64,000 bases of DNA from Halichondria panicea (lineage: Eukaryota; Porifera; Demospongiae; Suberitida; Halichondriidae), in the NCBI RefSeq assembly GCF_963675165.1, contig NC_087385.1:780001-844000 (forward strand), given 5' to 3'. Below are positions 3,244-60,500 of the stretch, piece by piece; positions within the stretch are counted from its first letter, which is position 1, and each line of letters starts with the position of its first letter. The notes under the pieces are model-generated. The model had not been told where the DNA came from and ran no database searches. It worked only from the letters and a program-made list of their open reading frames with translations. Made by a program: the position numbers and the translations under genes.

Positions 3244-6200
3244 ATGGATGGTCCAGTTGAACCATCACCTCGTTGGGGTCAATTCTCTGCAGTTGACGGA
3301 CGCCATTACATGTGGAGGGGGACTGGTCCAGGACTAAGGGGGTCTAACATCATTGCTGTGTATGATCCAAGCACTGAGCTGTGGAGCCTCTTGCCCACCA
3401 CTGGACCTCTACCCCCTGGAGAGTTGGGTGGTTACTCTGTTTGTGTAGGTCGTTGCCTGTACACTATTGGTGGTGGTGATGGGTCTTCTTACTTCAATGA
3501 CATGAGCAAGCTTAATCTGGACACTCTCCAGTGGACCAACATTCAAACCTCTGGTAGTCAACCTATGAAAAAGGCTTACTGTGGACTTGTCCGTGTGAAT
3601 GAGAGAACTCTGTGCTGCTTTGGAGGAGGAGGTATTGAGGGCACCACACAACCAGGATCAACATTCACCAAGACTAGACTTTGTTTTTTCTTTGACACAC
3701 AAAATGGTAACTTTTGTCAATGTGCACATTCGCTGTATGTTTTCATTGCATACACTTATAGGGTATCTAGCTACTGGTGGGCGGAGTCCCACCCTCACTC
3801 ACATAGGAAACCATGTTCACTTTCATATCAATCAATGTTATAAGGATGATGTAACATTGTACCATTCTCTAAATTGCCCCACCCCCACTTCCAGGTGTCT
3901 GGTCGTCCCCTGAGCTCAGAGGAGAGAGACCTCCTCCCTGTAGTAACTTCACCTTCACCATGGTGGACCAGAACAGGGCAGTCCTCTTTGGAGGGTACCA
4001 ATCTGGCCGTGGTGGGGTCAATGAAGTCTACCTATTAGATTTCAGGACCATGGTGAGTTGGAATTAGTACTGCCACATTGAAATGCACAATACTGTGTGT
4101 TCACTGTGTGTAGGAGGTCACTAAGGTGAAGCCAGTACAGGGAGAGCCATGGCCAGTGGGTAGGGCAGGCCATGCTGCCTGTTGTCTCAACTATGGACAG
4201 GACCACCCTCAACTACTGGTGTACGGAGGACTGGGTAATGGCAGCAAGGCACTGGGGGACATGTGGACACTTAATGTTGACGCTGTCAAGTGGACAGAGG
4301 TGAGTCTTGTCTTATTATGAACTGTTAGTGTACGTGTAATAAATGGACGTAATAAAGAGATACGAGACGTTCATTTACAAGAGTAAATAACTTTGAAGTC
4401 TAGGAGGATGTTAAATACTTGTGCTATGTACACACACCTTTACTGTATTATATCACGTTGTCAAGGTTACAAGCGTGTAATAAAAGTCATACAGTCCCTT
4501 CCGTACACGGTCGCGTAGCCTCGAGGCATAATTTGGTAAAGGGTCACTGTAATATAAAACACATAGCCTTGAGATTCCTCGTGTTGTAATGTTATATTTA
4601 TTTCATACAGTACATGGATTATCTGATGATCTGTTCAGAATACACAGTACTACTGTACACTCAACATTTATTTATCAGAGCATTATTTTTATTTTATGCC
4701 TCCAGGTGACACCTCCTGAGTCAATGACACCACGTTTCCTCCACTCCATCACTGCCACCAGTCTGGGACCAGGACTCACTGAGGTCCTCGTGTTTGGAGG
4801 CCTGTCGGAAGGAGATCCCATTGCTGAGACCACCATACTGAGATTTGGTGAGCAGCTACTAGTACATGTAGCCATGGCAACTATTTTTTGATAGACAAGT
4901 ACACACAATACATGTGTCAATGACTCTGAATGCATTATACTGTTACATTTGTTCCTTAATCCCCCCTACAGAGTTGACTGGACCCTCAGCGTCTGTTGCT
5001 GGACCCTCGGCTGGGAAGTGGGCTCTCGTGGATGTGGCCCACAACGACACTAGAGGCTCCGCCCAGCGACTGAGTGAGAAGAGGATCAGACAAGCAACTG
5101 CTCGTGCCTCATCAGTCAGTGAGACCAGCGACCACTCCTCTCAAGACCAGGTGAGGGCTCTGGAACAACAGTTACAAGCAGCAGAGCAGAGAGAGCACGA
5201 CACTCAACGTCACCACCAACTACAGTTGCAAGAGAAGGATCGTGAATTCGCTACACAAGCTAGAGAATTGATCGAGGCCAACCGTCGTCATGGAGATACG
5301 GAGGAAAGAGCACAGCTGGCAGAGCAAAGAGAGCAAGCTACACAATTACTTTTACAAGTGAAAGATCGAGATTTGGCTGAGGCCAACAGAAGAGAAGCTG
5401 ACCTGTCTGCTCGAATCACAGCTCTAGAGAGGGAGTTAGAAGGCAAGACGAAAGAGTTGGCAGCACACAACACAGAGGTGTGGAGGATTCCGGCCAACAG
5501 AGTGATCACGATGAGAACGATTGGCACTGGAGGATGGGGGGAGGTGCTGGAGGGAACAGTGAGCGTGGCCGTTAAGCGACTCTTTGCTGCCATTGTCAAC
5601 CCACGCAATCTGGAGAGACTCCAGAGAGAAATGATGCTCTTGGCTGAAGTACGACACCCCAACCTGGTGCAGTTCATTGGGGCAGTGTTTGACCAATCCC
5701 CTCCTCTCATCATCACCGAGCTTCTGGACATGAATCTTCGACAAGCGTATGAAGAGAATGAACTGGACCCAGGAAACCGCCTCTCGATCTTCATGGACAT
5801 TGCCCTAGCTCTGAACTACCTGCACCAGCGCTACGATCCCATCATCCACCGTGATGTGAGTGCTCCCAACGTCCTCCTCCAGCGAATGCCCAACCACCAG
5901 TGGAAGGGGAAGGTCTCTGACCTGGGCTCAGCCAACTTCCTGCAGCATGCTCATACGATGGGAGAGGGGGCCATAATCTACTCCCCTCCTGAAGTCATCC
6001 CTCAACCGCTTGTACGACCTCCTCCACAAACTGTCAAGATTGACGTGTACAGCTACGGCATTGTGTTGGCTGAAGTGACTGCCAGTCGATTTCCGAGTCA
6101 AGACAATTTCCCTGAGATGTTTGAGAGAATCAAGAGAGAGCGTCCTGCAGTGTACGAGCTGATACTCGGCTGTATTGAGAGAGAGCCCAGCCATCGACCC

Positions 6201-6248
6201 AGCATGGCACAGGTGATGGTGGAACTGAACAAAATAGCACCCTTTTAA
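3244..6248 (+). CDS. K1: kelch-repeat / coiled-coil / TKL-like protein kinase (kinase type I)
   Basis: Five exons join in frame: 3244-3706, 3895-4052, 4114-4299, 4706-4847 and 4972-6248, giving 741 residues. Residues 1-316 hold six kelch repeats, each with a GG doublet. Residues 317-490 form a charged coiled coil of EANRRHGD / QLAEQREQ modules. Residues 490-741 are a kinase with glycine loop GTGGWGEV, lysine in VAVKRL, HRDVSAPN catalytic loop, SPPE and a DLG in place of DFG. There is no signal peptide or membrane segment, so the protein is probably cytosolic. The start is the ATG just after the exon-1 acceptor, because an in-frame ATG at 3223 lies inside the intron. Compared with its paralogues, K1 lacks about 7 residues before FFDTQNG. 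It is convergent with D2. The substrate is unknown. Confidence 0.85.
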
Positions 6249-6725
6249 CTATGAACAATGTGAACACTTATAATTATCTAGTATCGTCTTATTATTGATT
6301 TTTAATTACTTTATGAATTTTATTTTTAGCTTTGGCTTTTGTAGTGTGTATTTGCACTCTCCTATTATGATGATTACTATTGACTTTATCTCAGTCTCAT
6401 GCTAATCGTTCACAATAATTATGATGAGTGGTATGGGCAAACGTTATTCACACGTACATAATTAGAACAATAGTAGTAACCACAAAACCAGTCCATTAAT
6501 AGAATCAAAGCGGTGAATATAGAGTTCCTAAGAGTGTGGCTGTTGAGAGCAGCCCACCCTCTGTGCCCCACCCACTCCTTCATCCACCTCATCTTTATTG
6601 TATATGGCTCCACCCCCTTGTACCCCGCCCACTCCACTCGTCCCCTCACTCTCTATCATATCCACTTCCTCTGCCTCTGGGTCCAGTGCTGGTGGGTCAG
6701 GTCCTGTAGGCAGGAGACACTCCAA

Positions 6726-6730
<5 letters not shown>

Positions 6731-6793
<63 letters not shown>

Positions 6794-6802
6794 GGGGGGG
6801 GG
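6731..6802. repeat. (TG)n microsatellite plus G-run
   Basis: About 30 TG dinucleotides are followed by a run of G, just inside the last intron of D2. The long open frames through it are artefacts of the repeat. Confidence 0.9.
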
Positions 6803-7462
6803 TAGAGTACATTGCTATATACAGTGGGGGCCTGTGTATTGGATCAGTATACCAACTACTTCACAAAGACACCTTAATTATAGAAGACAAGGTGGTACAG
6901 CATAAAGATATTGCATGTATACAGTGGAGGCCTGTGTATTGAGAGGCTGCATACACTGCACACACATATCACATGATTATAGCCACTGCATACCTTTAGT
7001 TGACTCTCCTCCAGGAAACCAGAGTCAGGGAATTGGATGGTGAACTGAACATAGAGGTTGCCCTTGACATGAGGCCTCCTGAACACTGGCATCCCCTCAC
7101 CCTCCAGACCCTGGACACACACACACACACACAGTACTGCATGTACATGTACACACACATTGTAAACTCAATTGATACTACTTTCAGTATGTTGTAATTA
7201 GATTGGCAGAGTTTTCGTAGCTTTTTAGCAACTGTACATGTACCTACGTACAACACTGCCCACACAACACAACCACTGTTAGTATTGCACATGACCACAA
7301 GACTATAAATACATACACATGAAGTGAAAATAGAAATAACAAGATCAAAAGTCCTATACCTAACCCTAATTATGACCCGTTCCAAATTCGGGAATTAAGC
7401 ATCTGAAAGAGCTTCTTCTCTAAAATGATATCATCAAAGTTCATATTTGAGTGATAAAACTA

Positions 7463-7648
7463 CCGTATAGCGGGTATATTTCGAGGGTATACACTTTCGC
7501 GGATTGACCGTTTAAAAGGTTTTCGGGAATTCAGAATAGCAGTCTTTCTATGCGTGCGATATTAAATTCGTGGGAATAAATGTTCGCGGTAGATGCTTGA
7601 TCAGCGAAAACCACGAACATTTATACCCTTGAAATCTCCGCTATACGG
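7463..7648. mobile_element. TA-flanked MITE in D2 intron
   Basis: The ends begin CCGTATAGCGG and are inverted. The element is flanked by TA at 7461-7462 and 7649-7650. The orthologous position in D3 (62,182-62,376) carries the same element, so it inserted before the DNAJA duplication. It belongs to the same family as the copy at 35,036-35,259. Confidence 0.75.
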
Positions 7649-8204
7649 TATTTGCCAATTTGGCCACACCACCTCAACAGTCTATTGAAGAACAAGAAGG
7701 ATGTCACTATATATAAGACAGCCATGCCAGTACACCTCAATGAACCTCCCTCCTTCACACTGGTACTCTTAGCTATCACTTTCAATTCAGCTGCTTTGGT
7801 TCTCATGGATAATAACAAGGGTGTATATATATGCCCTTGATAATAAATAGCCTAAGTCTTGTTAAAGCTGCCAGATCAACAGTCCTAAGGTACCTAACCC
7901 TAACACATGTCCCCTCAGCTTGTAAGGCTGGGACACACTATAATAGCTTGTATGTACACTCCTCTCAAAGGCAGCCCTATACACAATCCTCCTCCTACCA
8001 GCCACCTACTCACCTGGTGACAGCACTGCTCCTGGTGACCTGGACACACGCACGCTCCTCCCGCCCAGGGGTACAGAGTGCAAGTGAAGCCACACAAGGC
8101 CTCCCTTAAACTGATGCTCTTCTCCACAAACAGGTCACAGTCGACTCTCCTGTAGTCGATGTGATCCAGCTGCTGCAAGATGTGAAGATAAAAGTATTTG
8201 CCAA

Positions 8205-8425
8205 TTTGACCCCACCATGGATTATAGCCCATATTCCAAGGCCAAAAATGACAAATTATTGCCCCATCTAAATTTTGGATTGATCATTTAAAAGGCCTCT
8301 TTCTAAGCTTTAGAAAATCATACAATTTTTGATATTGGATCAACGGTAGGAAAGTAATGGCTGTTAACAGATGTTCAACTACAACCCCCCTCACGTTTAA
8401 TTGAATAATAATTTTATGATCGCAA
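8205..8425. repeat. interspersed repeat (also in ATP9 introns)
   Basis: The landmarks 'gccaaaaatgacaaattatt', 'ttctaagcttt' and 'ggatcaacggtaggaaagt' recur at 62,940-63,130 in the same orientation and at 22,430-22,800 and 55,010-55,370 in reverse complement. No ORF is present. Confidence 0.6.
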
Positions 8426-8689
8426 CAATTTAGTAATGCTGAGATTAGATTAGGTGATGATAACATTACAGGGTACACAGGTCTTACAATATGTGGATAG
8501 AGCTGCCATTCTACAGTGCTTGCAGTCTAGAGAGTAGATTACCACACATTTGTGAGTAGTTGTACTTACCTTGTCACTATGGTCGTCACCAGCAGTGTTT
8601 TGAAGAGACAAGACATAAAGTGTTTAGTTCACACGAGTTCAGAGGTTAAATAATAATGTAACACGTAGGAAACATATTATAATGAAAGC

Positions 8690-9210
8690 ACCGCAGGTGC
8701 TGATGCCTCGGTGGAGGTGCCAAAGCTACATAACATAAAACTACTAATAGCTAGCTTTTATTATACATTGTACACACATTGATTATGATGAATTTTGCTG
8801 CATGCAATCAACCGAATAGTGGGTAATGATCGACCATGATTGTTGTTAAAAACGATCGATGCCAAAAGTTCAAGTCTAAAATTAATGGCTGCAAGTCAGC
8901 AGAGCCTTGCAGCTCTCTGCTCACTCTTGCAGCTACCAATAGCTAGCGTTCTAGTGCAGAGCTAACTACTAAGTAGAGTAGTAACACTCGGTGAACAAGT
9001 TTTGCTACGGACTCTTCTGAAAAGGCTGCAATAGCATTCCAAGTAAGCAAAACTAGGCATAACTCGAGAACGAAGCATTATTTTGCAAATCCACAAATTG
9101 AAAACATGACTAGAAGCCTATAGAAACTCTTACTTGCACTTCATTGATCCTTGAGCAGCTGTAGCAGTCTACACAGATAGACACAAACACACTACCGTAT
9201 CCCTCGCTTG
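8690..9210 (-). repeat. dispersed repeat, copy 2 (inverted)
   Basis: This is the reverse complement of the 1-520 repeat, with the same end blocks. It lies in the long intron between the D2 30-nt exon and its zinc-finger exon. Confidence 0.6.
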
Positions 9211-10903: not shown

Positions 10904-10906
10904 GTA

Positions 10907-12073
10907 ATGGATGCTCCAGTTGAACCATCACCTCGGTTAGGTCAATTCTCTGCAGTTGACGGACGCCATTACATGTGGAGGGGTTATGGTCCAGGACTGA
11001 GGGGGTCTAACATCATTGCTGTGTATGATCCAAGCACTGAGCTGTGGAGCCTCTTGCCCACCACTGGACCTCTACCCCCTGGAGAGCGGGGTGGTTGCTC
11101 TGTTTGTGTAGGTCGTTGCCTGTACACCTTTGGTGGTTGTGATGGGTCTTCTTACTTCAATGACATGAGCAAGCTTGATCTGGACACTCTCCAGTGGACC
11201 AAAGTTCAAACCTCTGGTAGTCAACCTATGAAAAAGGCTTTATGTGGACTTGTCCGTGTGAATTAATGAGAGAACTCTGTGCTGCTTTGGAGGAGAAGGT
11301 ATTGGCACCACACAACCAGGATCAACATTCAACAAGACGGGACACTCTGATGGAAGGGGATGGACAAACGAGTTTCATTTCTTTGACACACAAAATGGTA
11401 AATTTTTGTCAACGCATACACTTATAGGGTATCTAGCTACTGGTGGGCGGAGTCCCACCCTCACTCACATAGGAAACCATGTTCACTTTCATATCAATCA
11501 ATGTTATAAGGAGGATGTAACATTGTACCATTCTCTAAATTGCCCCACCCCCACTTCCAGGTATCTGGTCGTCCCCTGAGCTCAGAGGAGAGAGACCTCC
11601 TCCCTGTAGTGCCTTCACCTTCACCATGGTGGACCAGCACAGGGCAGTCCTCTTTGGAGGGTACCAATCTAGCCGTAGTAAAGTCTACCTATTCGATTTT
11701 AGGACCATGGTGAGTTGGAATTAGTACTGCCACATTGAAATGCACAATACTGTGTGTTCACTGTGTGTAGGAGGTCACTAAGGTGAAGCCAGTACAGGGA
11801 GAGCCATGGCCAGTGGGGAGAGATAATCATGCTGCCTGTTGTCTCAACTATGGCCAGGACCACCCTCAACTACTGGTGTACGGAGGAGTGGATAATAGCA
11901 GCAAGGCACTGGGGGACATGTGGATACTGGATGTAGACACTGTCAAGTGGGCAGAGGTGAGTCTTGTCTTATTATGAACTGTTAGTGTACGTGTAATAAA
12001 TGGACGTAATAAAGAGATACGAGACGTTCATTATGCCTCGAGGCGTAGCCGCACGAGGGATACGGTAAAGCTG

Positions 12074-12104
<31 letters not shown>

Positions 12105-14816
12105 CTGTTCCAGCTGTAACTGCTCAACGGTTGCAATGCGACGAAAACTAACAGCTTCTATAGGCTTCTAGCCACGTTCTCTTGGATTTTGATTCGTGGA
12201 TTAGCAAACTAAAGCTTCTTTCTCGAGTTATGGCTAGTTTGACTCACATTGAAGGCTGTTGCAGTCTCTTCAGAATCTTTCATAGCATCATCTGTCCGCA
12301 CATACTTTCTATTCAACATATGAGTTAGCCTTGCACTAAAGCGCTAGCTTTTTGTTAGCTACAAGACTCAGAAAATATCTGTTAAAACAGCTAGCTAGCA
12401 GTAGCCATTGATCTGTTTGGACACACCCTTTATTATTCCTGTGGATGTAATGCGCATGCGCGCTCATTCCCCACGTGTGAGAAACCAAGATCCAGATCCA
12501 GATCCTCCTGGCAGAATCATCTTTGTCTTGAGGGCCTGGTAAGCCACAAAACACTACCATATAACAATATAGATAACAATATGCATGTACACAGGTCTGA
12601 TATTATATACACTGAACTACAGATCCTGGAAGAATCAATTTTCTTCTTTCTTGAGGTCCTGGTAAGCCACATAATACAATAAATAACAACAATAGATGCA
12701 TATAAATAAGTCTTTTCTTCTCAGTGACTTTATATAGGTAAGCTAACTTTAATATAAAATTCATTATAGAAACTAATATAACACTCTAATACTTTTGAGC
12801 GAAAGCAAAAACATGGCGAGAGGCATTAGCACAGCGCCAGCTTGAACACTAGTTTACAAGAGTAAATAACTTTGAAGTCTAGGAGGATGTTAAATATGTG
12901 TGCTATGTACACACACCTTTACTGTATTATATCACGTTGTCAAGGTTACAAGCGTGTAATAAAAGTCATACAGTCCCTTCCGTACACGGTCGCGTAGCCT
13001 CGAAGCATAATTTGGTAAAGGGTCACTGTAATATAAAACACATAGCCTTGAGATTCCTCGTGTTGTAATGTTATATTTATTTCATACAGTACATGGATTA
13101 TCTGATGATCTGTTCAGAATACACAGTACTACTGTACACTCAACATTTATTTATCAGAGCATTATTTTTATTTTGTGCCTCCAGGTGACACCTCCTGAGT
13201 CAATGACACCACGTTACAGCCACTCCATCACTGCCACCAGTCTGGGACCAGGACTCACTGAGGTCCTCGTGTTTGGAGGCAAGTGGGAGTGGTGGGGAGA
13301 TGCCATTGCTAGGACCACCATACTGAGATTTGGTGAGCAGCTACTAGTACATGTAGCCATGGCAACTATTGTCTGATAGACAAGTACACACAATACATGT
13401 GTCAATGACTCTGAATGCATATACTGTTACATTTGTTCCTTAATGCCCCCACAGAGTTGACTGGACCCTCAGCGTCTGTTGCTGGACCCTCGGCTGGGAA
13501 GTGGGCTCTCGTGGATGTGGCCCACAACGACACTAGAGGCTCCGCCCAGCAACTGAGTGAGAAGAGGATCAGACAAGCAACTGCTCGTGCCTCATCAGTC
13601 AGTGAGACCAGCGACCACTCCTCTCAAGACCGGGTGAGGGCTCTGGAACAACAGTTACGAGCAGCAGAGCAGAGAGAGCACGACACTCAACGTCACCACC
13701 AACTACAGTTGCAAGAGAAGGATCATGAATTAACTGAGGCCAACCGTCGTCATGGAGATGCAGAAAGACAACTCAGAGAATCTCAACAAATTTTCCAAGA
13801 AGAATTGGCCGAAGCCAACCGTCGCCTTAGAGATACCGAGGAAAGAGTACAACTGGCAGAGCAAAGAGAGCAAGCTACTCAAAATCGCTCTGAACAATTG
13901 TTGCAAGAAAAAGATCGGATAATGGCGATAAAAGAACGAGAATCATACGAGGCCAACCATCGTCGTGTTGATACTGAGAGGAGAGTCCAAGAGCTGATTG
14001 CTGAAAATGAAACCAAAGGTCAGAGAGGAGAGCCCAGCTGGCAGAGGAGCGAGCAGAGGGTCTGGAGACTCAGTGGGTGGTCCATCGCGAGGAAATCACA
14101 ATGACAGAGAGACAGCTCGGTGGGGGAGGATGGGGGGTCGTCAAAGTGGCCAAGTTCCGAGAAATCGAGGTGGCAGCCAAGACACTGTACGAGCAGCTCA
14201 GATCCGACTATTATCGACACGTGTTTATTCGTGAGATGAACATGGCGGCTCGTCTGCGACACCCACACCTGGTCCAGTTCATAGGAGCCACGCTGGAGGG
14301 GGAGATGATCATCCTGACAGAGCTCATGGCCACCAGTCTGAGGAGGGTGCTGGAGGGAGGTCGTATCTCACGTGAACACATCCTCTCCATCTCTGTGCAG
14401 GTCTGTCAAGCCCTCAACTATCTCCACCTCATGCAGCCAGACCCAGTGATCCATCGTGACATCAGCAGTGCAAACATCCTCCTCTACCCGATGGCCGCTG
14501 GAGTGCAAAGGTTACCGACTACGGCTCCGTGAACACCCTGCGAGCATTGGCGACAGAGAATCCTGGTAATCCAGTGTATGCTGCCCCTGAGGCAAGAACC
14601 CCTTCCCTCCAGTCAACCAAGATGGACATGTTCAGTTTGGGGGTGCTCCTGATCGAGATGTGTTCTGGCCAGTTTCCGAGTGATGACGGACGTGAGTGCT
14701 TACTCCTCACCATCCAAGACCGTCAGTTCTCTGGCATCATCAGTCGCTGTATCCATAGAGACAGAGACAATCGACCAACCGCTCGACAATTGTTGAATGA
14801 GCTGCTACATTTATAG
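10907..14816 (+). pseudogene. K2: kelch / coiled-coil / kinase (type II), decayed
   Basis: This has the same exon plan as the other K genes but carries at least three frame-breaking lesions. A 4-nt insertion after GTGAAT makes a stop at 11,264-11,266 in the first kelch exon. A deletion near 14,010 removes the LQEDLQRSD part of the coiled coil and shifts the frame. A 7-nt loss near 14,487 breaks the kinase after HRDISSANILL. The kinase module is type II (GGGGWGVV loop, DYG replaced by a shifted frame, YAAPEA). The third kelch intron carries an extra insertion of about 800 bp. The gene lies 300 bp upstream of ATP9 copy A. A shortened product of the kelch part alone remains possible. Confidence 0.75.
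12036..12850. repeat. about 800-bp insertion in K2 intron (dispersed repeat, copy 3)
   Basis: The other K genes read 'gacgttcatttacaagag' here. K2 is interrupted after 'gacgttcatt' and resumes at 'tttacaagag'. The insert starts 'tgcctcgaggcgtagccgca', contains a (TG)n tract and resembles the 1-520 repeat. No clear terminal inverted repeat or target duplication could be fixed. Confidence 0.6.
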
Positions 14817-35522: not shown

Positions 35523-35525
35523 GTA

Positions 35526-38500
35526 ATGGATGCTCCAGTTGAACCATCACCTCGTGCGGGTCAATTCTCTGCAGTTGACGGACACCATTACATGTGGAGG
35601 GGGGCTGGTCCAGGACGAGGGTCTAACATCATTGCTGTGTATGATCCAAGCACTGAGCTGTGGAGCCTCTTGCCCACCACTGGACCTCTACCCCCTGGAG
35701 ATTATGGTGGTTGCTCTGTTTGTGTAGGTCGTTGCCTGTACACCTTTGGTGGCCGTGATGAGTCTTCTTACTTCAATGACATGAGCAAGCTTGATCTGGA
35801 CACTCTCCAGTGGACCAAAGTTCAAACCTCTGGTAGTCAGCCTATGAAAAAGGCTTTCTGTGGACTTGTCCGTGTGAATGAGAGAACTCTGTGCTGCTTT
35901 GGAGGAGAAGGTATTGAGGGCACCACACAACCAGGATCAACATTCACCAAGACTAGACTGTCTGATGGAAGGGGATGGACAAACGAGTTCCATTTTTTTG
36001 ACACACAAAATGGTAACTTTTATCAATGTGTGCACATTCGCTGTATGTTTTCATTGCATACACTTATAGGGTATCTAGCTACTGGTGGGCGGAGTCCCAC
36101 CCTCACTCACATAGGAAACCATGTTCACTTTCATATCAATCAATGTTATAAGGATGATGTAACATTGTACCATTCTCTAAATTGCCCCACCCCCACTTCC
36201 AGGTGTCTGGTCGTCCCCTGAGCTCATAGGAGAGAGACTTCCTCCCTGTGCTGACTTCACCTTCACCATGATGGACCAGCACAGGGCAGTCCTCTTTGGA
36301 GGGTACCACCCTATCCATGGTGAGCTCAATGATGTCTACTTCCTTGACTTCAGGACCATGGTGAGTTGGAATTAGTACTGCCACATTGAAATGCACAATA
36401 CTGTGTGTTCACTGTGTGTAGGAGGTCACTAAGGTGAAGCCAGTACAGGGAGAGCCATGGCCAGTGGAGAGGTCACTCCATGCTGCCTGTTGTCTCAACT
36501 ATGGCCAGGACCACCCTCAACTACTGGTGTACGGAGGACTGGATAATGGTAACAAGACACTGGGGGACATGTGGATACTGGATGTTGACACTGGCAAGTG
36601 GGTAGAGGTAAGTCTTGTCTTATTATGAACTGTTAGTGTACGTGTAATAAATGGACGTAATAAAGAGATACGAGATGTTCATTTACAAGAGTAAATAACT
36701 TTGAAGTCTAGGAGGGTGTTAAATACTTGTGCTATGTACACACACCTTTACTGTATTATATCACGTTGTCAAGGTTACAAGCGTGTAATAAAAGTCATAC
36801 AGTCCCTTCCGTACACGGTCGCATAGCCTCGAGGCATAATTTGGTAAAGGGTCACTGTAATATAAAACACATAGCCTTGAGATTCCTCGTGTTGTAATGT
36901 TATATTTATTTCATACAGTACATGGATTATCTGATGATCTGTTCAGAATACACAGTACTACTGTACACTCAACATTTATTTATCAGAGCATTATTTTTTG
37001 TGCCTCCAGGTGACACCTCCTGAGTCAATGACACCACGTTCCTACCACTCCATCACTGCCACCAGTCTGGGACCAGGACTCACTGAGGTCCTCGTGTTTG
37101 GAGGCAAGCATAATACTTTGTTTGGATATGCCACTGCTGAGACCACCATACTGAGATTTGGTGAGCAGCTACTAGTACATGTAGCCATGGCAACTATTGT
37201 CTGATAGACAAGTACACACAATACATGTGTCAATGACTCTGAATGCATATACTGTTACATTTGTTCCTTAATCCCCCCTACAGAGTTGACTGGACCCTCA
37301 GCGTTTGTTGCTGGACCCTCGGCTGAGAAGTGGGCTCTCGTGGATGTGGCCCACAACGACACTAGAGGCTCCGCCCAGCGACTGAGGGAGAAGAGGATCA
37401 GACAAGCAACTGCTCGTGCCTCATCAGTCAGTGAGACCAGCGACCACTCCTCTCAAGACCGGGTGAGGGCTCTGGAACAACAGTTACGAGCAGCAGAGCA
37501 GAGAGAGCACGACACTCAACGTCACCACCAACTACAGTTGCAAGAGAAGGATCATGAAATAACTGAGGCCAACCGTCGTCATGGAGATGCAGAAAGACAA
37601 CTCAGAGAAGCTCAACAAATTTTCCAAGAAGAATTGGCCGAGGCCAACCGTCGCCTTAGAGATGCCGAGGAAAGAGCACAACTGGCAGAGCAAAGAGAGC
37701 AAGCTACTCAAAATCGCTTTGAACTATTGTTGCAAGAAAAAGATGGGATAATGGCGATAAAAGAACGAGAATCATACGAGGCCAACCATCGTCGTGTTGA
37801 TGCTGAGAGAAGAGTCCAGGAACTGATTGCTGAAAATGAACGACTTCAAGAAGACCTCCAAAGGTCAGACAGGAGAGCCCAGCTGGCAGAGGAGCGAGCA
37901 GAGGGTCTGGAAACTCAGTGGGTGGTCCATCGCGAGGAGATCACAATGACAGAGAGACAGCTCGGTGGGGGAGGATGGGGGGTCGTCAAAGTGGCCAAGT
38001 TTCGAGAAATCGAGGTGGCAGCCAAGACACTGTACGAGCAGCTCAGATCCGACTATTACCGACACGTGTTTATTCGTGAGATGAACATGGCGGCTCGTCT
38101 GCGACACCCACACCTGGTCCAGTTCATAGGAGCCACGCTGGAGGGGGAGATGATCATCCTGACAGAGCTCATGGCCACCAGTCTGAGGAGGGTGCTGGAG
38201 GGAGGTCGTATCTCACGTGAACACATCCTCTCCATCTCTGTGCAGGTCTGTCAAGCCCTCAACTATCTCCACCTCATGCAGCCAGACCCAGTGATCCATC
38301 GTGACATCAGCAGTGCAAACATCCTCCTCAATCCTCTACCCAATGGCCGCTGGAGGGCAAAGGTCACCGACTACGGCTCCGTGAACACACAGCGAATGTT
38401 AAACACGATGAACCCGGGGAGTCCTGTATACGCTGCCCCTGAGGCCGGTAACCCGTCCCTCCAATCAACCAAGATGGACATGTTCAGTCTAGGGGTGCTC

Positions 38501-38668
38501 CTGATCGAGATGTGTTCTGGCCAGTTTCCGAGTGATGACGGGCGTGAGCGCTTACTCCTCACCATCCAAGACCGTCAGTTCTCTGACATTATCAGTCGCT
38601 GTATCCATAGAGACAGAGACAATCGACCAACCGCTCGACAACTGTTGAATGAACTACGAGATAGATAA
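35526..38668 (+). CDS. K3: kelch-repeat / coiled-coil / TKL-like kinase (kinase type II)
   Basis: Five exons join in frame: 35,526-36,012, 36,203-36,360, 36,422-36,607, 37,010-37,160 and 37,284-38,668, giving 788 residues. Residues 1-327 hold six kelch repeats. Residues 328-546 hold the longest coiled coil of the family, with extra EANRRLRDAEERAQLAEQRE modules. Residues 547-788 are a kinase with GGGGWGVV loop, lysine in EVAAKTLYEQL, VIHRDISSANILL catalytic loop, TDYGSV in place of DFG, and AAPEA. HPHLVQFIGA fits TKL kinases. All motifs needed for catalysis are present apart from Tyr in place of Phe in DFG. No signal peptide or membrane segment is present. Its 5' region is split by the KDZ insertion, which may affect expression. 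The C-terminus (NELRDR) differs from K2 and K4 (NELLHL). Confidence 0.87.
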
Positions 38669-40049: not shown

Positions 40050-41114
40050 CTCCACAGATACTGAGAAGCTTCCAGAGAAGGAGTACTTTGACTTCTCTAT
40101 AAAGAGCAGGTCCATTCGTTGCAGGTATATGTGTACATGAGTAGCTGACGCTGGTTGAAAGAGAGAGCAGGGTGATTCACAGCCATCACATAGAGGAGGC
40201 GGAAATCCTTCAGCACCTAGACACAAGGCAAATAGATATAGTATTATAAGCATTGGACTGAGAATACTGTTAACTATTAGTCTAGTCAACTGACAAGTGA
40301 GTCAAGTTGATAACTGGAGTGCAGACAATGTGCCATCCATTAGGAGCAGTGTACATGCACCTGGACACACACTTGTATAGCTGTGTATTGCTTTAGCTGG
40401 TCATGACGTGCTCAGGCATACAGTTAGTGAGTATGTGATTGTTGGTACAACATTGAAATACCCGCAGATCCTTGCAGGCACATCAACACACCCTAATCCA
40501 GGTCACCACTCTGCATGGCTATTCTATTATATGAAACCCACTAAAACAGCAAATATTGTGGCTTGGCCAGAAACATCTGCCACAACTTGGTATACAGTAA
40601 GAGCTTTTAGCAAATGAGTAGGTGGCATGAGTGATCCTAGGTAATACATAACAACCACTATAGAAGCAATACCCACCACACTAGCTAATAATGAATATGA
40701 ACACCTCATGCAAATGGAGTTAGAGAAACACTGACAGTGTCCAATCTTAATTACTTTGAGCTCATTGCAATCCTCAAAAAACGTCAGCACTTTCTTATCG
40801 TTGAGTAGTTGGAATACGACCTCAGCCACAGGTCGATTATCCGAATGCACAACAGACAGAGAACTGCACAGTTTGAGACATACTTGGTGAGAGAGGCCTG
40901 ACTCTTGGAAGGGCTTGTAGTAGCTCACTCTGTTGGCATGTATCTCAATTTTATTCACTTGCGATTTGTAATGCTCTTTAGAGGCGTCTAATAATACGGT
41001 ACCGAGGAATCGAGATTCAAATGCCAGACAGTGACGTAGCATTCGACAGATGAGGTCCACACGATCGCACGCCTCGAGGCCATGAAACGCTTGCAATATC
41101 TCTGATAGCTTCAT
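40050..41114 (-). CDS. ZCCHC2/ZCCHC14-like N-terminal region (partial)
   Basis: Exon 40,755-41,114 starts with ATG (MKLSEILQAF). It encodes DRVDLICRMLRHCLAFESRF and LGTVLLDASKEHY, then LSVVHSDNRPVAEVVFQLL, ending ELK at a GTAATT donor. The next exon, 40,050-40,216, reads on in phase as VLKDFRLLYVMAVNHPALSF plus NQRQLL. Both resemble the N-terminus of ZCCHC14/ZCCHC2 (a helix-rich region before their SAM or PX parts). The second exon then meets a stop near 40,105. A shift of frame gives YLQRMDLLFIEKSKYSFSG. So either an indel is present, or an internal donor is used, or this exon serves another gene. No zinc knuckle was seen. Orientation and spacing would also allow one model with the ATG8-like exons, but I cannot join them in frame. 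Confidence 0.45.
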
Positions 41115-41619
41115 ATCTGTATACGTCAGCCACTAGGCCTGTAATAGAGACAACGGTATATACGTTAATGCAGTTTATATATAGGACACACAACAGTACG
41201 GCTATAATTATTGTGCAGTGGAGCTATCAAGACTAGCTGTGTACAATCTAGGACTAACACTTGCCTTGGAATTTAACCACAACACACAGTCTCAACAATT
41301 CATCATCTTTGGGAGACCTAGTTATCTGTACTTAATAGCAATAGACTCTTGATTCATGTCGTGTGTGCAGCTCTATAGTAACTGTATAGTTGAGGCTATA
41401 GTATCTAGATACAAGGCTCTCATGCACAACACACAATTCTGCACAGTAGGTGAGCACACGTAGCTAGCTGGTTGTACACTTGTTATAACTGTTAATAGTT
41501 TATTATTGTTACCTAAACAGGCAGATAGTCTCAGAGCTAGCTTGACCAGACAGCCCTATTTGGGTAGAGGACTCTTGAGGCACAAAATTCAGTTATTTGC
41601 AGAGATCAAAGGTTTCATC

Positions 41620-44226: not shown

Positions 44227-47200
44227 ATGTTGAAAGCTCGGCTGCACTCCTTTTTTGGTCGTCCACCAGTTGAACCATTAGTTGAACCACCACCTCGTTA
44301 TGGTCAATTCTCTGCAGTTGACGGACACCATTACCTGTGGAGGGGGGTTGGTCCAGGACGAGGGTCTAACATCATTGCTGTGTATGATCCAAGCACTGAG
44401 CTGTGGAGCCTCTTGCCCACCACTGGACCTCTACCCCCTGGACCTCTACCCCCTGGAGAGGCTGATGGTTGCTCTGTTTGTGTAGGTCGTTGCCTGTACA
44501 CCTTTGGTGGTTGGGATGGGTCTTCTTACGTCAATGACATGAGCAGGCTTGATCTGGACACTCTCCAGTGGACCAAAGTTCAAACCTCTGGTAGTCAGCC
44601 TATGAAAAAGGCTTACTGTGGGCTTGTCTGTGTGAATGAGAGAACTCTGTGCTGCTTTGGAGGAGTCGGTATTGAGGGCACCACACAACCAGGATCAACA
44701 TGCACCGGTGGACGCACAAACGAGTTTCATTTCTTTGACACACAAAATGGTAACTTTTGTCAATGTGACATTCGGTGTATTTGCATACACTTATAGGGTA
44801 TCTAGCTACTGGTGGGCGGAGTCCCACCCTCACTCACATAGGAAACCATGTTCACTTTCATATCAATCAATGTTATAAGGATGATGTAACATTGTACCAT
44901 TCTCTAAATTTCTCCACCCCCACTTCCAGGTGTCTGGTCGTCCCCTGAGCTGAGAGGAGAGAGACCTCCTCCCTGTAGTGCCTTCACCTTCATCATGGTG
45001 GACCAGCACAGGGCAGTCCTCTTTGGAGGGTGGCAACTTGGCCGTGGTAGGCTCAATGAAGTCTACCTCTTCGATTTTAGGACACTGGTGAGTTGGAATT
45101 AGTACTGCCACATTGAAATGCACAATACTGTGTGTTCACTGTGTGTAGGAGGTCACTAAGGTGAAGCCAGTACAGGGAGAGCCATGGCCAGTGGAGAGGT
45201 CACTCCATGCTGCCTGTTGTCTCAACTATGGCGACCACCCTCAACTACTGGTGTACGGAGGACTGGATGATGACATCAAGACACTGGGGGACATGTGGAT
45301 ACTGGATGTTGACGCTTTCAAGTGGACAGAGGTGAGTCTTGTCTTATTATGAACTGTTAGTGTACGTGTAATAAATGGACGTAATAAGAGACGTTCATTT
45401 ACAAGAGTAAATAATTTTGAAGTCTAGGAGGATGTTAAATACTTGTGCTATGTACACACACCTTTACTGTATTATATCACGTTGTCAAGGTTACAAGCGT
45501 GTAATAAAAGTCATACAGTCCCTTCCGTACACGGTCACGTAGCCTCGAGGCATAATTTGGTAAAGGGTCACTGTAATATAAAACACATAGCCTTGAGATT
45601 CCTCGTGTTGTAATGTTATATTTATTTCATACAGTACATGGATTATCTGATGATCTGTTCAGAATACACAGTACTACTGTACACTCAACATTTATTTATC
45701 AGAGCATTATTTTTTGTGCCTCCAGGTGACACCTCCTGAGTCAATGACACCACGTCTCTACCACTCCATCACTGCCACCAGTCTGGGACCAGGACTCACT
45801 GAGGTCCTCGTGTTTGGAGGCCGTCGAGAGCTGTGGGGAGATCCCATTGCTGAGACCACCATACTGAGATTTGGTGAGCAGCTACTAGTACATGTAGCCA
45901 TGGCAACTATTGTCTGATAGACAAGTACACACAATACATGTGTCAATGACTCTGAATGCATATTCTGTTACATTTGTTCCTTAATTCCCCCTACAGAGTT
46001 GACTGGACCCTCAGCGTCTGTCTCGGCTGGGAAGTGGGCTCTCGTGGATGTGGCCCACAACGACACTAGAGGCTCCGCCCAGCGACTGGGTGAGAAGAGG
46101 ATCAGACAAGCAACTGCTCGTGCCTCATCAGTCAGTGAGACCAGCGACCACTCCTCTCAAGACCGGGTGAGGGCTCTGGAACAACAGTTACGAGCAGCAG
46201 AGCAGAGAGAGCACGACACTCAACGTCACCACCAACTACAGTTGCAAGAGAAAGATCGAGAATTAGCTACACAAGCTAGAGAATTGACCGAGGCCAACCG
46301 TCGTCATGGAGATGCGGAGGAAAGAGCACAGCTGGCAGAGCAAAGAGAGCAAGCTACACAATTACTTTTACAAGTGAAAGATCGTGAATTGGCTGAGGCT
46401 AACCATCGCCATGGAGATGCTGAGACTAGAATCCAAGAACTTCAAGAAGACCTCCAAAGGTCAGACAGGAGAGCCCAGCTGGCAGAGGAGCGAGCAGAGG
46501 GTCTGGAGACTCAGTGGGTGGTCCATCGCGAGGAGATCACAATGACAGAGAGACAGCTCGGTGGGGGAGGATGGGGGGTCGTCAAAGTGGCCAAGTTCCG
46601 AGGAATCGAGGTGGCAGCCAAGACACTGTACGAGCAGCTCAGATCCGACTATTACCGACACGTGTTTATTCGTGAGATGAACATGGCGGCTCGTCTGCGA
46701 CACCCACACCTGGTCCAGTTCATAGGAGCCACGCTGGAGGGGGAGATGATCATCCTGACAGAGCTCATGGCCACCAGTCTGAGGAGGGTGCTGGAGGGAG
46801 GTCGTATCTCACGTGAACACATCCTCTCCATCTCTGTGCAGGTCTGTCAAGCCCTCAACTATCTCCACCTCATGCAGCCAGACCCAGTGATCCATCGTGA
46901 CATCAGCAGTGCAAACATCCTCCTCAACCCTCTACCCGATGGCCGCTGGAGTGCAAAGGTCACCGACTACGGCTCCGTGAACACACAGCGAATGTTGAAC
47001 ACAATGAACCCAGGGAGTCCTGTATACGCTGCCCCTGAGGCCGGTAACCCGTCCCTCCAGTCAACCAAGATGGACATGTTCAGTCTGGGGGTGCTCCTGA
47101 TCGAGATGTGTTCTGGCCAGTTTCCGAGTGATGACGGACGTGAGCGCTTACTCCTCACCATCCAAGACCGTCAGTTCTCTGACATCATCAGTCGCTGTAT

Positions 47201-47264
47201 CCATAGAGACAGAGACAATCGACCAACCGCTCGACAACTGTTGAATGAACTGCTACATTTATAG
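44227..47264 (+). CDS. K4: kelch-repeat / coiled-coil / TKL-like kinase (kinase type II)
   Basis: Five exons join in frame: 44,227-44,749, 44,930-45,087, 45,149-45,331, 45,726-45,873 and 45,997-47,264, giving 759 residues. Residues 1-337 hold six kelch repeats, 338-518 a shorter coiled coil, and 519-759 a type II kinase almost identical to K3 (GGGGWGVV, AAKTL, HRDISSAN, TDYGSV, AAPEA). The N-terminus (MLKARLHSFFGRPP) and 5' flank differ from all other K genes, so K4 lacks the head-to-head cassette and instead follows ZFAND1 by about 200 bp. An in-frame tandem copy of PLPPG is present in the second blade (about 44,425-44,455). ATP9 copy B starts 290 bp downstream. Confidence 0.87.
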
Positions 47265-51600: not shown

Positions 51601-51764
51601 GTGAAGGTAGGTGGTTAGTTTACATGTACAATGCACAGTGTAACAGACCGCTTATGCTGTGTGCCTACATCTTGTGTACCAGCCTGTACAGTTTGTTTAG
51701 TATGGTTTTATTGTGTATACGTATACAATGTACTGCTGCTTATGTTTGGGTTGAACTCTGTTCT

Positions 51765-54700: not shown

Positions 54701-54739
<39 letters not shown>

Positions 54740-55009
54740 ACTCCACGATCTACACCATGTTCCCTGTATTCTCACTGGCTCTGGATGAAGACGTACATTG
54801 CTCTCATGTACATGTACCCTGTACTTTACCAGGAGCTGATGAAGGGACGATCTCTCACACTCAAAACATTCCTCATCTGGGTCCTCATCTCCATCTATCA
54901 AGGTTAACCACTTGGACTCTTTAAAGCTAGTGAATATTGACCACTTGTACACCTGTAGGTGCTTGTAAAAAGCCCACTTAATTGTTTATTTGCTTAATTT
55001 AACCTTGCT

Positions 55010-55370
55010 TCTAGCTGTACGTCTTTAAAACAGCCGTAACTTTAGTATCGTTGATCCAATGTTAAAAATATTATGATTTTCTGAAAGCTTAGAAAAACAC
55101 CTTTTAAATGATGTGTTTAAATCCAAAATTCAGGCCGGGCCATAATTTGTCATTTTTCGGCTTTGGTCCATGGGCATCCATGGTCCAACCAAATTGGCAA
55201 ATTGTTTTTTTTCTCAAATATGAACTTTGATGGTACCATTTGAAAGGTCTCCTTCTAAGCTTTCATAAAACCCTAAAATCGTTGAAATTCGATCCACGGA
55301 ATTCAAGTTATGGCAGCTAAAAGCGTCCCTGAACTGTTAATAAAATAATGGTGGTACGTTGTACATCTTT
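55010..55370. repeat. interspersed repeat in ATP9-B intron
   Basis: This is the counterpart of 22,430-22,800, with small indels ('gggctatatatatata' is missing here). Confidence 0.6.
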
Positions 55371-56456
55371 CAACAGCCATAACCTTAGTACCAACAGTAA
55401 GCTTCCTACAGTATTCTTGCCCCATTTACACGTTCACAGAACTCTCTCTGTCATAGACACACCTACCAACACCCACTCCCCCACACACCACACCCCACAT
55501 ACACACACACACAGGTGGTGTGATCATGCTGGTGGGATTCCTTCTCTTTGAGTCGCAGTTCATCCACGTTGTGTCCATCATGTTCACGGCCCTCGTGCTC
55601 ACAGAGCTACTTATGGTGGCACTCAAGATACGAACATGGCACTTCCTGATGGTCCTGGCCGAGGTCGTCTCTGTCGTCATTTATATCCTCTCTCTCTTTG
55701 TCCTCAAGGATTATTTTGGTGAGAGTCGTTAATACGTACGCCTGTAATTCTAGCAACTGTGTGAGTGGAAACATTCTCAGTGACTGTTACAAATTAATTA
55801 CTGATTGCCTGAGGCATAATTATCAGGAGCAGTTGGTAATCAAAAAAATACTGTAGTATCGTGGTGCTGATGGTATTTCATGTCAGTGCTTAGAAATTAT
55901 CAAACTTAATTCTGTGAGTTTTTGGCTAGCTAAAATCTACAATTATTGATATGTACTTACCCCCACCCCCCCCCCCACACACACACACACACACACACAA
56001 CACACTGTAGACTCCTCCTTCTTACTGACGTTTGGTTTTGTGTGGAAGACGCTGGCTGTGACTGGAGCAAGTTGCGTGCCACTGTTCATTGCCAAGTTCA
56101 TGCAGCGATGGTGTGCTCCCTCCAGCTACACCAAGCTACTCAAGAAGAACACCATGCTTAGAAACTGTTGCAAACTAACTTGCTAGTTTATGTATATATA
56201 CAGCTAGTGCAAATCAGTTTCTATCACATAATTTTTATTTTATCGATGCATGACCGACATTAATTCCTCATGAAGTAGAATTTTGTACCACTCTCTCAGC
56301 ACATATATACGAAAACATTTTGTTTCAAATTATTTTAAACAACAATAGTTAATTAATTTTGACATAATTATGGGACAATGAGAATTTTTATTCAATGATG
56401 GACCATTAATTTGAATAATACAACATACATACATACATGTACATACGTTTATAGTC

Positions 56457-57185
56457 TCAATTAATTGCTTGGAGTTCCCAGTCTCTGGTATATATATAGG
56501 CAGTCTCACACTCCAGACTCATCTCTGAGCCTCGTGTCAGCGATGGTCGTCTCGGTCCCCTACGATTGAGGAAATTACTGATGATTGATTCCGAGTCCTC
56601 CCCCGGCTCCACTCCCCTCACACTTCTACTGGGCCCGCCCACTCCACTGCGTCCTCCCACGCCTCGACTACTGCCAGTGTGGGTCCCAGCATTGAGTATA
56701 GCGTCCAATTGTCTCATCCTCTCCTCATTGCGACCAGCCATGCCGTCCACATCCAGGGTAGCTACAGAGAACTGGGACTGACCACCTACAGGGAAATTAA
56801 GGAAACAGTAAAACAGATTACGTGTTAGCAAAGATATCTCAATGAAGTGAAGACATGGATGACTATTATGGTAGGCATGTCATGCTGTGACGGTAATTAA
56901 CAGTGTACAGTAATACCTACATGTACATCTTAATCAGTTTTAAGGCAACATAATGTAGTTTCCATTCTACACAATGATAAATACACACACTGTCATGAGC
57001 AATCTTTACACATTGTACGACATGCTCTGCAACTAGACTAGACCTAGACCTATAATATTGCCCATTGACAGGCCTATGGGTATAAGCTGTATGTGCAATA
57101 TTCCTAGTATTCCTAGTTACACTCACCTACTCCTGCAGCGCTAGACAACCTTCAGATCTCTACACCTCCTCCAGCTAGCCATTTT
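56457..57185 (-). CDS. S-B: copy of the small unrecognised gene
   Basis: The main exon 56,457-56,785 is the counterpart of the S-A exon, with a few residue changes (RRLDAIL to RQLDAIL, GHSG to GRSG). An 8-nt 'tatatata' gain near the end shifts the frame and replaces the last residues with IYTRDWELQAIN. The upstream exons at about 56,966 and 57,127-57,185 match S-A. Keeping an open frame over about 90 residues in both copies supports a real coding exon. Function is unknown. It is head-to-head with K5. Confidence 0.4.
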
Positions 57186-57497
57186 GGGAGTGCATGGGCT
57201 CTCCTCATAACCTTTGCAATAGTGGGGGCGTGGCTGGTATGCAAGATCAACAGAACTCCAACAACAATAGCAGCTCTCTGATATCTCTGAGGGAGTGTTC
57301 TACTGTCCATGACTTGTAAGTTGAAATGCTGTGTCTCATTGCTGCTATAGATATACAGAGTTCATGTAAGTCATGTGATGGTTGTTGATCTGGTTAGGTC
57401 CTATAGCTAGCATGCATAGTCTCAGTCCAGGCTCAACCAATGATTGTGTGTGTGTGTGTGATGGCATAAACACTGTCTCATGATCACTCCTGTGCAG
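57186..57497. promoter_or_regulatory. head-to-head 5' cassette between S-B and K5
   Basis: This is an uninterrupted cassette with 'gggggcgtggc', the intact target site 'agcagctctctgatatctctg' and a short (TG)n tract. It is the direct empty-site comparison for the KDZ insertion next to S-A and K3. Confidence 0.5.
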
Positions 57498-57500
57498 GTA

Positions 57501-60500
57501 ATGGATGCTCCAGTTGAACCATCACCTCGTCGGAGTCAATTCTCTGCGGTTGACGGACACCATTACTTGTGGAGGGGGGTTAGTCCAGGACCGAGGGGGT
57601 CTAACATCATTGCTGTGTATGATCCAAGCACTGAGCTGTGGAGCCTCTTGCCCACCACTGGACCTCTACCCCCTGGAGAGCATGGTGGTTGCTCTGTTTG
57701 TGTAGGTCGTTGCCTGTACACCTTTGGTGGTAAGGATGGGTCTTCTTACTTCAATGACATGAGCAAGCTTGATCTGGACACTCTCCAGTGGACCAAAGTT
57801 CAAACCTCTGGTAGTCAGCCTATGAAAAAGGCTTTCTGTGGACTTGTCCGTGTGAATGAGAGAACTCTGTGCTGCTTTGGAGGATTCGGTATTGAGGGCA
57901 CCACACAACCAGGATCAACATTCACCAAGACTGGTGGATACACAAACGAGTTCCATTTCTTTGACACGCAGAATGGTAACTTTTATCAATGTGCACATTC
58001 GCTGTATGTTTTCATTGCATACACTTATAGGGTATCTAGCTACTGGTGGGCGGAGTCCCACCCTCACTCACATAGGAAACCATGTTCACTTTCATATCAA
58101 TCAATGTTATAAGGATGATGTAACATTGTACCATTCTCTAAATTGCCCCACCCCCACTTCCAGGTGTCTGGTCGTCCCCTGAGCTCATAGGAGAGAGACC
58201 TCTTTCCTGTGACTTCACCTTCACCATGGTGGACCAGCACAGGGCAGTCCTCTTTGGAGGGTACCAACCTGGCCGTGGTGAGGTTAATGAAATCTACATT
58301 TTTGATTTCCAGACCATGGTGAGTTGGAATTAGTACTGCCACATTGAAATGCACAGTACTGTGTGTTCACTGTGTATAGGAGGTCACTAAGGTGAAGCCA
58401 GTACAGGGAGAGCCATGGCCAGTGGAGAGGTCATTCCATGCTGCCTGTTGTCTCAACTATGGCCAGGACCACCCTCAACTACTGGTGTACGGAGGACTGG
58501 GTAATAGCAGCAAGGCACTGGGGGACATGTGGATACTGGATGTAGACACTGTCCAGTGGACAGAGGTGAGTCTTGTCTTATTATGAACTGTTAGTGTACG
58601 TGTAGTAAATGGACGTAATAAAGAGATATGAGACATTCATTTACAACTTTGAAGTCTAGGGGATGTTAAATACTTGTGCTATGAACACACCTTTACTGTA
58701 TTATATCACGTTGTCAAGGTTACAAGCGTGTAATAAAAGTCATACAGTCCCTTCCGTACACGGTCGCGTAGCCTCGAGGCATAATTTGGTAAAGGGTCAC
58801 TGTAATATAAAACACATAGCCTTGAGACTCCTCGTGTTGTAATGTTATATTTATTTCATACAGTACATGGATTATCTGATGATCTGTTCAGAATACACAG
58901 TACTACTGTACACTCAACATTTATTTATCATTATTTTTTGTGCCTCCAGGTGACACCTCCTGAGTCAATGACACCACGTTACTACCACTCCATCACTGCC
59001 ACCAGTCTGGGACCAGAACTCACTGAGGTCCTCGTGTTTGGAGGCAAGCGGGAGAGCCTGGGAGATGCCATTGCTGAGTCCACCATACTGAGATTTGGTG
59101 AGCAGCTACTAGTACATGTAGCCATGGCAACTATTGTCTGATAGACAAGTACACACAATACATGTGTCAATGACTCTGAATGCATATACTGTTACATTTG
59201 TTCCTTAATCCCCCCTACAGAGTTGACTGGACCCTCAGCGTCTGTTGCTGGACCCTCGGCTGGGAGGTGGGCTCTCGTGGATGTAGCCCACAACGACACT
59301 AGAGGCTCCACCCAGCGACTGAGTGAGAAGAGGATCAGACAAGCAACTGCTCGTGCCTCATCAGTCAGTGAGACCAGCGACCACTCCTCTCAAGATCGGG
59401 TGAGGGCTCTGGAACAACAGTTACGAGCAGCAGAGCAGAGAGAGCACGACACTCAATGTCACCACCAACTACAGTTGCAAGAGAAGGATCGTGAATTAGC
59501 TTTAAAAGATTGTGAATTGACCAAAGCCAATCGTCGTCATGGAGATGCGGAGGAAAGAGCACAGCTGGCAGAGCAAAGAATGCAAGCTACACAATTACTT
59601 TTACAAGTGAAAGATCGAGAATTGGCTGAGGCCAACAGGAGAAAAGCTGACCTGTTTGCTCGAATCACAGCTCTAGAGAGGGAGTTAGAAGGCAAGACGA
59701 AAGAGTTGGCAGCACACAACACAGAGGTGTGGAGGATTCCGGCCAACAGAGTGATCATTGGCAGGAGAATTGGCAAAGGAGGGTGGGGGGAGGTGCTGGA
59801 GGGAACAGTGAGCGTGGCCGTCAAGCGACTACACGAAGAAATTACTCTCCCAATCTACATCGAGAAAATGGAGAGAGAAATGAATCTATTGGCTGAAGTG
59901 CGACACCCAAACCTTGTGCAATTCATTGGTGCTATTTTTGATGTGCCAAACCAAGCCCATCGATCCCCTCCTCTCATCATCACCGAGCTTCTGGACATGA
60001 ATCTCCGACAAGCGTACGAGAGGAATCAACTGGACCCAGGAAATCGTCTCTCGATCTTCATGGACATTGCCCTAGCTCTGAACTACCTGCACCAGCGCTA
60101 CGATCCCATCATCCACCGTGATGTGAGTGCTCCCAACGTCCTCCTCCAGCAAATGCCCAACCACCAGTGGAAGGGGAAGGTCTCTGACCTGGGCTCAGCC
60201 AACTTCCTGCAGCATGCTCATACGATGGGAGAGGGGGCCATAATCTACTCCCCTCCTGAAGCCATCCCTCAAGCCTTTGATCCTCTCACTCCACCTCTGA
60301 GACAGTCTGTCAAGATCGATGTGTACAGCTACGGCATTGTCCTCTGTGAGGTGACCGCTAGTCGATTCCCAAGTGCTGAACATTATCGAGACATGATTCT
60401 CCAAGTACAGAGGCAGCATCCTGCAGTGTACGAGCTGATACTCCACTGCACTAAGAGAGAGCCCAGCCATCGACCCAGCATGGCACAGGTGATGGTGGAA

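Follow-up and report, generated by a model that had tools for sequence, protein, structure and literature searches.

Kelch-kinase genes of the sponge Halichondria panicea vary at predicted ligand contacts of the propeller and may form a recognition repertoire

Kelch-kinase genes in the window and in the genome

The stretch of DNA analysed here (the window, 64,000 nucleotides) covers positions 780001-844000 of contig NC_087385.1 (C9) of Halichondria panicea, whose genome comprises 131 Mb in 39 contigs. Matches to Wnt occur in this genome (10 rows), in line with an animal source. The window harbours genes in which a kelch propeller is followed by a coiled coil and a kinase domain. The initial annotation had described five such kinases in tandem. 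Five copies (K1 to K5) are indeed present, but K2 is a pseudogene, the family extends far beyond the window, and a second family behaves alike. K1 consists of five exons with AG/GT borders and 742 codons, counted from the border of exon A; its kelch repeats are encoded by exons A-D, followed by the coiled coil and the kinase in exon E. K3, K4 and K5 share this plan. The features are, in window coordinates:

3241..3706, + strand: K1 kelch exon A, blades 1-3, based on AG/GT sites, in-frame translation and entropy; hypervariable codons, from entropy, at 3274-3276, 3322-3324, 3424-3426, 3475-3477, 3577-3579 and 3628-3630 (+ strand)
3895..4052, + strand: K1 kelch exon B, blade 4; hypervariable codons 3945-3947 and 3996-3998
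4114..4299, + strand: K1 kelch exon C, blade 5; hypervariable codons 4168-4170 and 4231-4233
4706..4847, + strand: K1 kelch exon D, blade 6; hypervariable codons 4736-4741 and 4802-4804, then an indel-rich loop
4972..6248, + strand: K1 exon E, coiled coil and type-1 kinase; VAVK and HRD present, DLG in place of DFG
10904..14815, + strand: K2 pseudogene; A 10904-11397 (with stops), B 11561-11709, C 11771-11956, D 13185-13332
from 13455, + strand: K2 kinase exon, split between frames
35523..38668, + strand: K3; A 35523-36012, B 36203-36360, C 36422-36607, D 37010-37160
37284-38668, + strand: K3 exon E, type-2 kinase
44269..47264, + strand: K4; A about 44269-44749 (5' end differs), B 44930-45087, C 45149-45331, D 45726-45873
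45997-47264, + strand: K4 exon E, type-2 kinase
57498..60524, + strand: K5; A 57498-57975, B 58164-58318, C 58380-58565, D 58950-59097
59221-60524, + strand: K5 exon E, type-1 kinase

The kelch exons are nearly identical, as had been noted, those of the other four copies showing 88.5-93.7% DNA identity to K5's. The intron between exons C and D of K2 measures 1,228 bases, compared to about 400 in the other window copies, and likely contains an insertion.

Across the genome about 73 separate places match the K5 exon, a number that results from our grouping of 100 match rows, 27 of which were judged to be fragments of others or weak unrelated kelch matches. The contig C9 carries 68 of these places, 67 of them between 0.04 and 2.4 Mb. 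We read 47 of the places, with high-scoring copies favoured. A block of about 28 kb occurs twice on C9 (298-318 kb and 326-346 kb; L040/L041, L044/L045, L055/L056); two of its gene pairs are identical across about 5 kb, while the third diverges after exon D, and the block is either a recent duplication or an assembly artefact.

The K1 kinase domain matches PF07714 (E 3.5e-32), and its best relatives in the PDB are CTR1, then an EGFR construct, TNNI3K, ABL and B-Raf. The motifs VAVK and HRD are kept in all twelve type-1 members aligned. A canonical DFG is absent, being DLG in type 1 and DYG in type 2. Match rows with at least 69% identity to the K1 kinase number 53 (a few being fragments of one gene), and three of them contain stops. 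At least three kinase types are found behind the same kelch and coiled-coil sensor (window 4972-6248 and 37284-38668; L046 and L054), which suggests that output domains were swapped between copies. Pfam searches with K1 exon A, K1 exon E and K3 exon E gave only kelch, kinase and weak coiled-coil-type matches, and no NACHT, WD40 or death domain. The proposed absence of a membrane segment and of a signal peptide is borne out for K1, in which the highest Kyte-Doolittle mean over 19 residues is 1.26 and no signal peptide can be recognised by eye in the first 40 residues.

Hypervariable positions, propeller face and selection

For the entropy alignment of the 47 members, broken rows (exon A: K2, L033, L034 and L037; exon B: L067 and L073; exon C: L034, L044 and L045) and missing rows (one in exon C, five in exon D) were taken out and exact duplicates collapsed, leaving 40, 41, 40 and 39 sequences for exons A, B, C and D. 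Most kelch columns are near-invariant, with a median entropy of 0.19, while the columns of highest entropy include two in each of the six blades. These twelve hypervariable sites (A7, A24, A66, A84, A122, A140, B17, B34, C19, C40, D11/D12 and D33) are in each blade the residue after the GG doublet and the residue before the first strand. The loop after GG contains more variable positions, some of them equally so (A157, A166, C44, D40, D41). Between 32 members, from which exact duplicates had been collapsed beforehand, the pockets differ on average at 9.8 of the twelve sites, the minimum being one. Tyrosine makes up 17% of the hypervariable residues versus 2.6% elsewhere and tryptophan 7.5% versus 2.6%; proline is nearly absent.

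The residues listed in the initial annotation for K1-K5 were recovered, apart from the K2 residue after 'CCFGG', which lies beyond a frameshift and was therefore not scored. The variable positions are likewise located as listed, but blade 4 (after CS and after FGG) and the variable stretch in the loop after GG had been overlooked. That variation occurs almost only at contact positions was too strong a statement: it is concentrated there, but the twelve sites, 3.7% of the columns, hold only 19-20% of the amino-acid differences. The ligand-side loops, 43% of the columns, hold 67-72%.

The contact positions had been deduced from KEAP1. We replaced this comparison by KLHDC2, which is the better full-length match and therefore the better yardstick: with the spliced K3 propeller all six blades align to KLHDC2 (8uxs; phmmer E 1.1e-31, query 3-313 to chain 8-324). 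According to the excerpts available, a crystal structure of KLHDC2 with a compound gives K147, Y163, W191, R236, R241, S269 and W270 as contacts (PMC11377542), and docking adds R189 (PMC12169847). A single numbering offset fits all eight contacts. Their columns rank 16, 4, 13, 3, 32, 23, 6 and 19 in entropy among 322, with a mean of 2.45 compared to 0.53 over all aligned columns, a value equalled by none of 100,000 random sets. Thus the variable sites coincide with predicted ligand contacts, as had been proposed. They are also distributed unevenly and off the bottom face: using loop-class borders that we drew from general knowledge of kelch topology, 34 of the 36 columns with an entropy above 1.5 fall into the ligand-side d-a and b-c loops (138 of 322 columns) and two into strands, whereas none of the 39 columns of the opposite (bottom) loops reaches this value.

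Over 922 pairs the proportion of nonsynonymous differences (pN) is 0.579 at the twelve sites versus a synonymous proportion (pS) of 0.090 and a pN of 0.073 elsewhere. Nucleotide diversity (pi), calculated for 18 of 25 full-length genes, amounts to 0.016-0.019 in introns B-C, C-D and D-E, 0.043 in intron A-B and 0.024-0.068 at fourfold sites of exons A-D. Values are far higher in the upstream flank (0.27) and at the kinase end of exon E, owing to a mixture of several types in these regions. In the C9 kelch genes the introns B-C, C-D and D-E (about 0.017) are thus less diverse than the fourfold sites of the adjoining exons, which suggests a homogenising exchange that spares the exons.

Selection on single codons was assessed with a FUBAR-like script of our own, using a coarse grid and one tree per exon, with the hypervariable codons left out of the trees. 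The model flagged 38 of 349 codon columns (posterior >0.95), and the site-wise test proposed at the outset yielded a nonsynonymous excess at 11 of the twelve hypervariable sites (at A122 weakly). Purifying sites number 0, 23, 6 and 8 in exons D, B, C and A. For the coiled coil and type-1 kinase (12 sequences) no positive and three purifying sites were found, with mean nonsynonymous and synonymous rates of 0.83 and 1.70. The view of a binding face diversified on a fixed scaffold is upheld by the variation at contact sites, by the nonsynonymous excess there and by the lack of one found in the kinase exon.

Close copies give some insight into how the differences arise. L040 and L042 are unchanged in exons B and C and show four changes in 651 intron bases, yet they have different hypervariable codons in exons A and D, among which synonymous and other changes are interspersed. 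We read this pattern as short exchanges between copies plus selection. A recombination test by incompatibility of neighbouring sites was uninformative (0.267 for adjacent sites versus 0.252 permuted).

A second hypervariable kelch family

A second and larger kelch family is located on contigs C1 (mainly 15.48-17.39 Mb), C6 (0.46-0.80 Mb) and C28 (L074-L080, L082-L102). Its kelch parts are single-exon open reading frames (ORFs) of six blades; 126 of 460 candidates were scored, and 123 of these are without stops. Among 27 members the same two positions per blade are variable, in addition to others, and the site model flagged 43 of 333 columns, including all twelve hypervariable sites. The second family appears, judged from these alignments, to employ the same recognition face.

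L102, the sole member read upstream, begins with a death-like exon, followed by a kinase exon (with HRD and DFG), a coiled coil and the kelch part. Its first exon gave no direct Pfam hit at E<=0.1, and so the assignment as a death domain rests on linked homology: the exon is homologous (E 2.8e-13) to C3:8275384, which matches Pfam Death with E 2.5e-6. In addition all eleven PDB hits are FADD, all of them weak (E 0.15-0.59). Of the first 124 death-like rows listed, 65 have the start of a listed kelch ORF within 4 kb downstream on the same strand, compared to eight upstream; conversely, 65 of the 126 scored kelch ORFs have a death-like exon upstream. This count replaces an earlier one on 85 hand-picked rows (60 of 85, control 7). 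The partners of the remaining death-like exons may be unlisted kelch copies or other genes. A second family with a putative death-like domain would strengthen the immune reading.

C12 (1.0-2.1 Mb and 5.9-6.1 Mb) also carries many Death or death-like matches, and C3 (0.09-0.63 Mb) carries related kinases; these clusters are perhaps further receptor families. In the window itself, an ORF on the - strand (40530-41132) encodes a Vts1-like domain (PF25479, E 1.6e-11) followed by hydrophobic stretches, and a long (CA)n/(GT)n microsatellite lies just beyond K5 (61377-61910).

Interpretation and relation to known systems

The fixed scaffold, the diversification at contact sites, the differing pockets and the kinase outputs all agree with cytosolic recognition receptors, and on the basis of the sequences we consider it probable that K1, K3, K4 and K5, as part of a large tandem family, encode kinases that serve recognition in the cytosol. 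In the mechanism we propose, a six-bladed, KLHDC2-like propeller would hold a pocket lined by about twelve, perhaps up to 20, residues, two or more from each blade, which differ between most genes. A coiled coil would link it to a TKL-like kinase, of which the kelch-kinase family has at least three types. Each gene might recognise a ligand of its own, for instance a peptide end or a surface that belongs to a microbe, to a symbiont or to another individual; the coiled coils could be clustered upon binding, and the kinase could then trigger a response. Genes would be duplicated and would exchange sequence with one another, and selection would then act on the pocket; mutation aimed at the surrounding DNA would not be the source of the diversity.

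Several observations weigh against this interpretation. A structure prediction with AlphaFold2 for kelch exon A (four window rows) reached a predicted local distance difference test score (pLDDT) of only 35 and was discarded, so that the assignment of the faces rests on sequence alignment and general kelch topology. The carboxylate-binding set of KLHDC2 (Arg236, Arg241, Ser269) is not kept, as the columns aligned to it hold Y14 I5 W4 N3 R3 and others, R27 E5 and others, and S23 A8 and others, respectively. At least eight of the 47 members have a broken kelch exon, and the majority of the amino-acid differences fall outside the twelve sites. A7 is not flagged by the site model, A122 is weak (likelihood ratio 0.6 and a high synonymous rate), and several further likelihood ratios are small. 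The missing positive sites in the kinase are a weak negative, because 12 sequences were used there compared to about 40 for the kelch exons and only three purifying sites were detected. Linkage between sites is near zero even at distances below 20 bases, and recombination or repeated change has made the trees less reliable, which weakens the tree-based site test. No tree enters into the contrasts of introns, fourfold sites and loops.

Among other explanations, the propellers could be substrate-docking domains of ordinary signalling kinases, with duplicates specialised on internal partners and not on foreign or non-self ligands. Kelch domains are often substrate adaptors, and the ligands of the closest solved relative, KLHDC2, are ends of the cell's own proteins. 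However, most pocket sites differ between copies in which introns B-C, C-D and D-E are about 98% identical, even the close copies L040 and L042 already differ at the pocket, internal partners would seldom select for such fast diversification, and the second family carries a putative death-like domain. We therefore regard docking of internal partners as unlikely. Still less likely, in our opinion, are codons targeted by a mutating mechanism similar to phage diversity-generating retroelements or somatic hypermutation, a pattern more of mutation than of selection. Codon changes of several bases between copies with almost identical introns would be in line with it, as would the scarcity of A at third positions of hypervariable codons (0.07 versus 0.21 elsewhere) and the fourfold diversity of the second family, which has its highest mean within three codons of these codons (0.083 versus 0.034, 0.053 and 0.080 further off). 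In the kelch-kinases, however, the corresponding value is 0.043 versus 0.034, 0.055 and 0.022, and in neither family is there a significant trend with distance (Spearman p 0.11 and 0.39). With no clear rise at neighbouring synonymous sites, local hypermutation explains the data less well than selection. Moreover, within the hypervariable codons pi is higher at the first two positions (0.46-0.67) than at the third (0.17-0.51), and L072 and L073, one of which is broken, have 11 changed bases in exons A-C but none at a hypervariable codon.

It might also be argued that many dying copies simply vary where the fold tolerates change, since loops are tolerant and broken members not rare. Yet the bottom loops, also expected to be exposed, are invariant at the entropy threshold used, replacements at the hypervariable sites exceed the synonymous rate many-fold instead of equalling it, kinase motifs are kept and stops are rare in the kinase rows, and among the hypervariable residues Tyr and Trp are enriched while Pro is almost lacking. 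Plain relaxed constraint is contradicted by the excess over both synonymous and intron rates, and we think it extremely improbable.

Taken a step further, the two families may constitute a germline-encoded cytosolic repertoire of an animal, with hundreds of genes built on one six-fold symmetric kelch pocket scaffold with twelve or more hypervariable positions and several kinase outputs (coiled coil-TKL types and death-like-kinase). This would be an immune or self/non-self system distinct from the known repertoires of NLR, TLR, lectin or immunoglobulin type, and like KLHDC2 it might read protein ends; we lean towards this wider proposal, with clearly less confidence than towards the recognition kinases themselves.

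Kelch proteins have been met in related contexts before. In two sponges exposed to microbial molecules a 'Kelch motif containing gene' was down-regulated (PMC6208332); in the sponge Mycale, families of Kelch-type propellers and of kinases are differentially expressed between niches and discussed together with microbes (PMC11000336); and a figure legend on choanoflagellate and filasterean kinases names Kelch among the domain labels (PMC6993872). The available excerpts of these three papers describe neither tandem kelch-kinase arrays nor hypervariable positions, and the main text of the Terpios genome paper does not mention kelch. No description of such kelch receptor kinases was found in the partly accessible full-text literature on kelch kinases, sponge kelch families and kelch positive selection, a scope outside which preprints and most subscription journals fall.

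If the interpretation as recognition receptors is correct, an early-branching animal owns a large kelch-based receptor-kinase repertoire that we did not find described, and a candidate answer is at hand to the question of how such animals distinguish microbes, symbionts and other individuals. It would also add, beside the fungal WD40 NLRs, a further case in which the face of a beta-propeller has been diversified while the scaffold stayed fixed. The pocket residues form a concrete list to swap and test.

KLHDC2, the C-end degron receptor of a CUL2 ubiquitin ligase, resembles the sponge propellers in its six-bladed kelch fold, its full-length alignment and its contact positions, which are among the variable ones here. 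It differs in that the sponge propeller continues into a coiled coil and a kinase, that the positions of Arg236, Arg241 and Ser269 vary and that dozens of paralogues stand against one gene. KEAP1 and other KLHL kelch proteins contact their ligands by the residue that follows GG and the one preceding strand a, which are the variable positions here. These proteins are single conserved genes with a BTB-BACK architecture and a role as E3 adaptors. The death-domain kinases of the IRAK/RIPK type are similar to the second family with its putative death-like exon and TKL-like kinase exon, but they are not known to have a hypervariable kelch propeller, and the exons of the window genes that were scanned contain no death domain. 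The HNWD NOD-like receptors of Podospora (het-d, het-e) work in a similar manner; no common descent is claimed, and the kelch genes, in which Pfam showed neither NACHT nor WD40 in the exons scanned, do not belong to that group. In the excerpts available their sensor is described as a beta-propeller in which each repeat has four hypervariable codon positions at the predicted interaction surface, under diversifying selection and with exchange between copies (PMC12222747). The HNWD sensor is a fungal WD40 propeller of near-identical repeats inside one protein of NLR architecture, whereas the kelch genes of Halichondria vary between paralogues, have a kinase output and belong to an animal.

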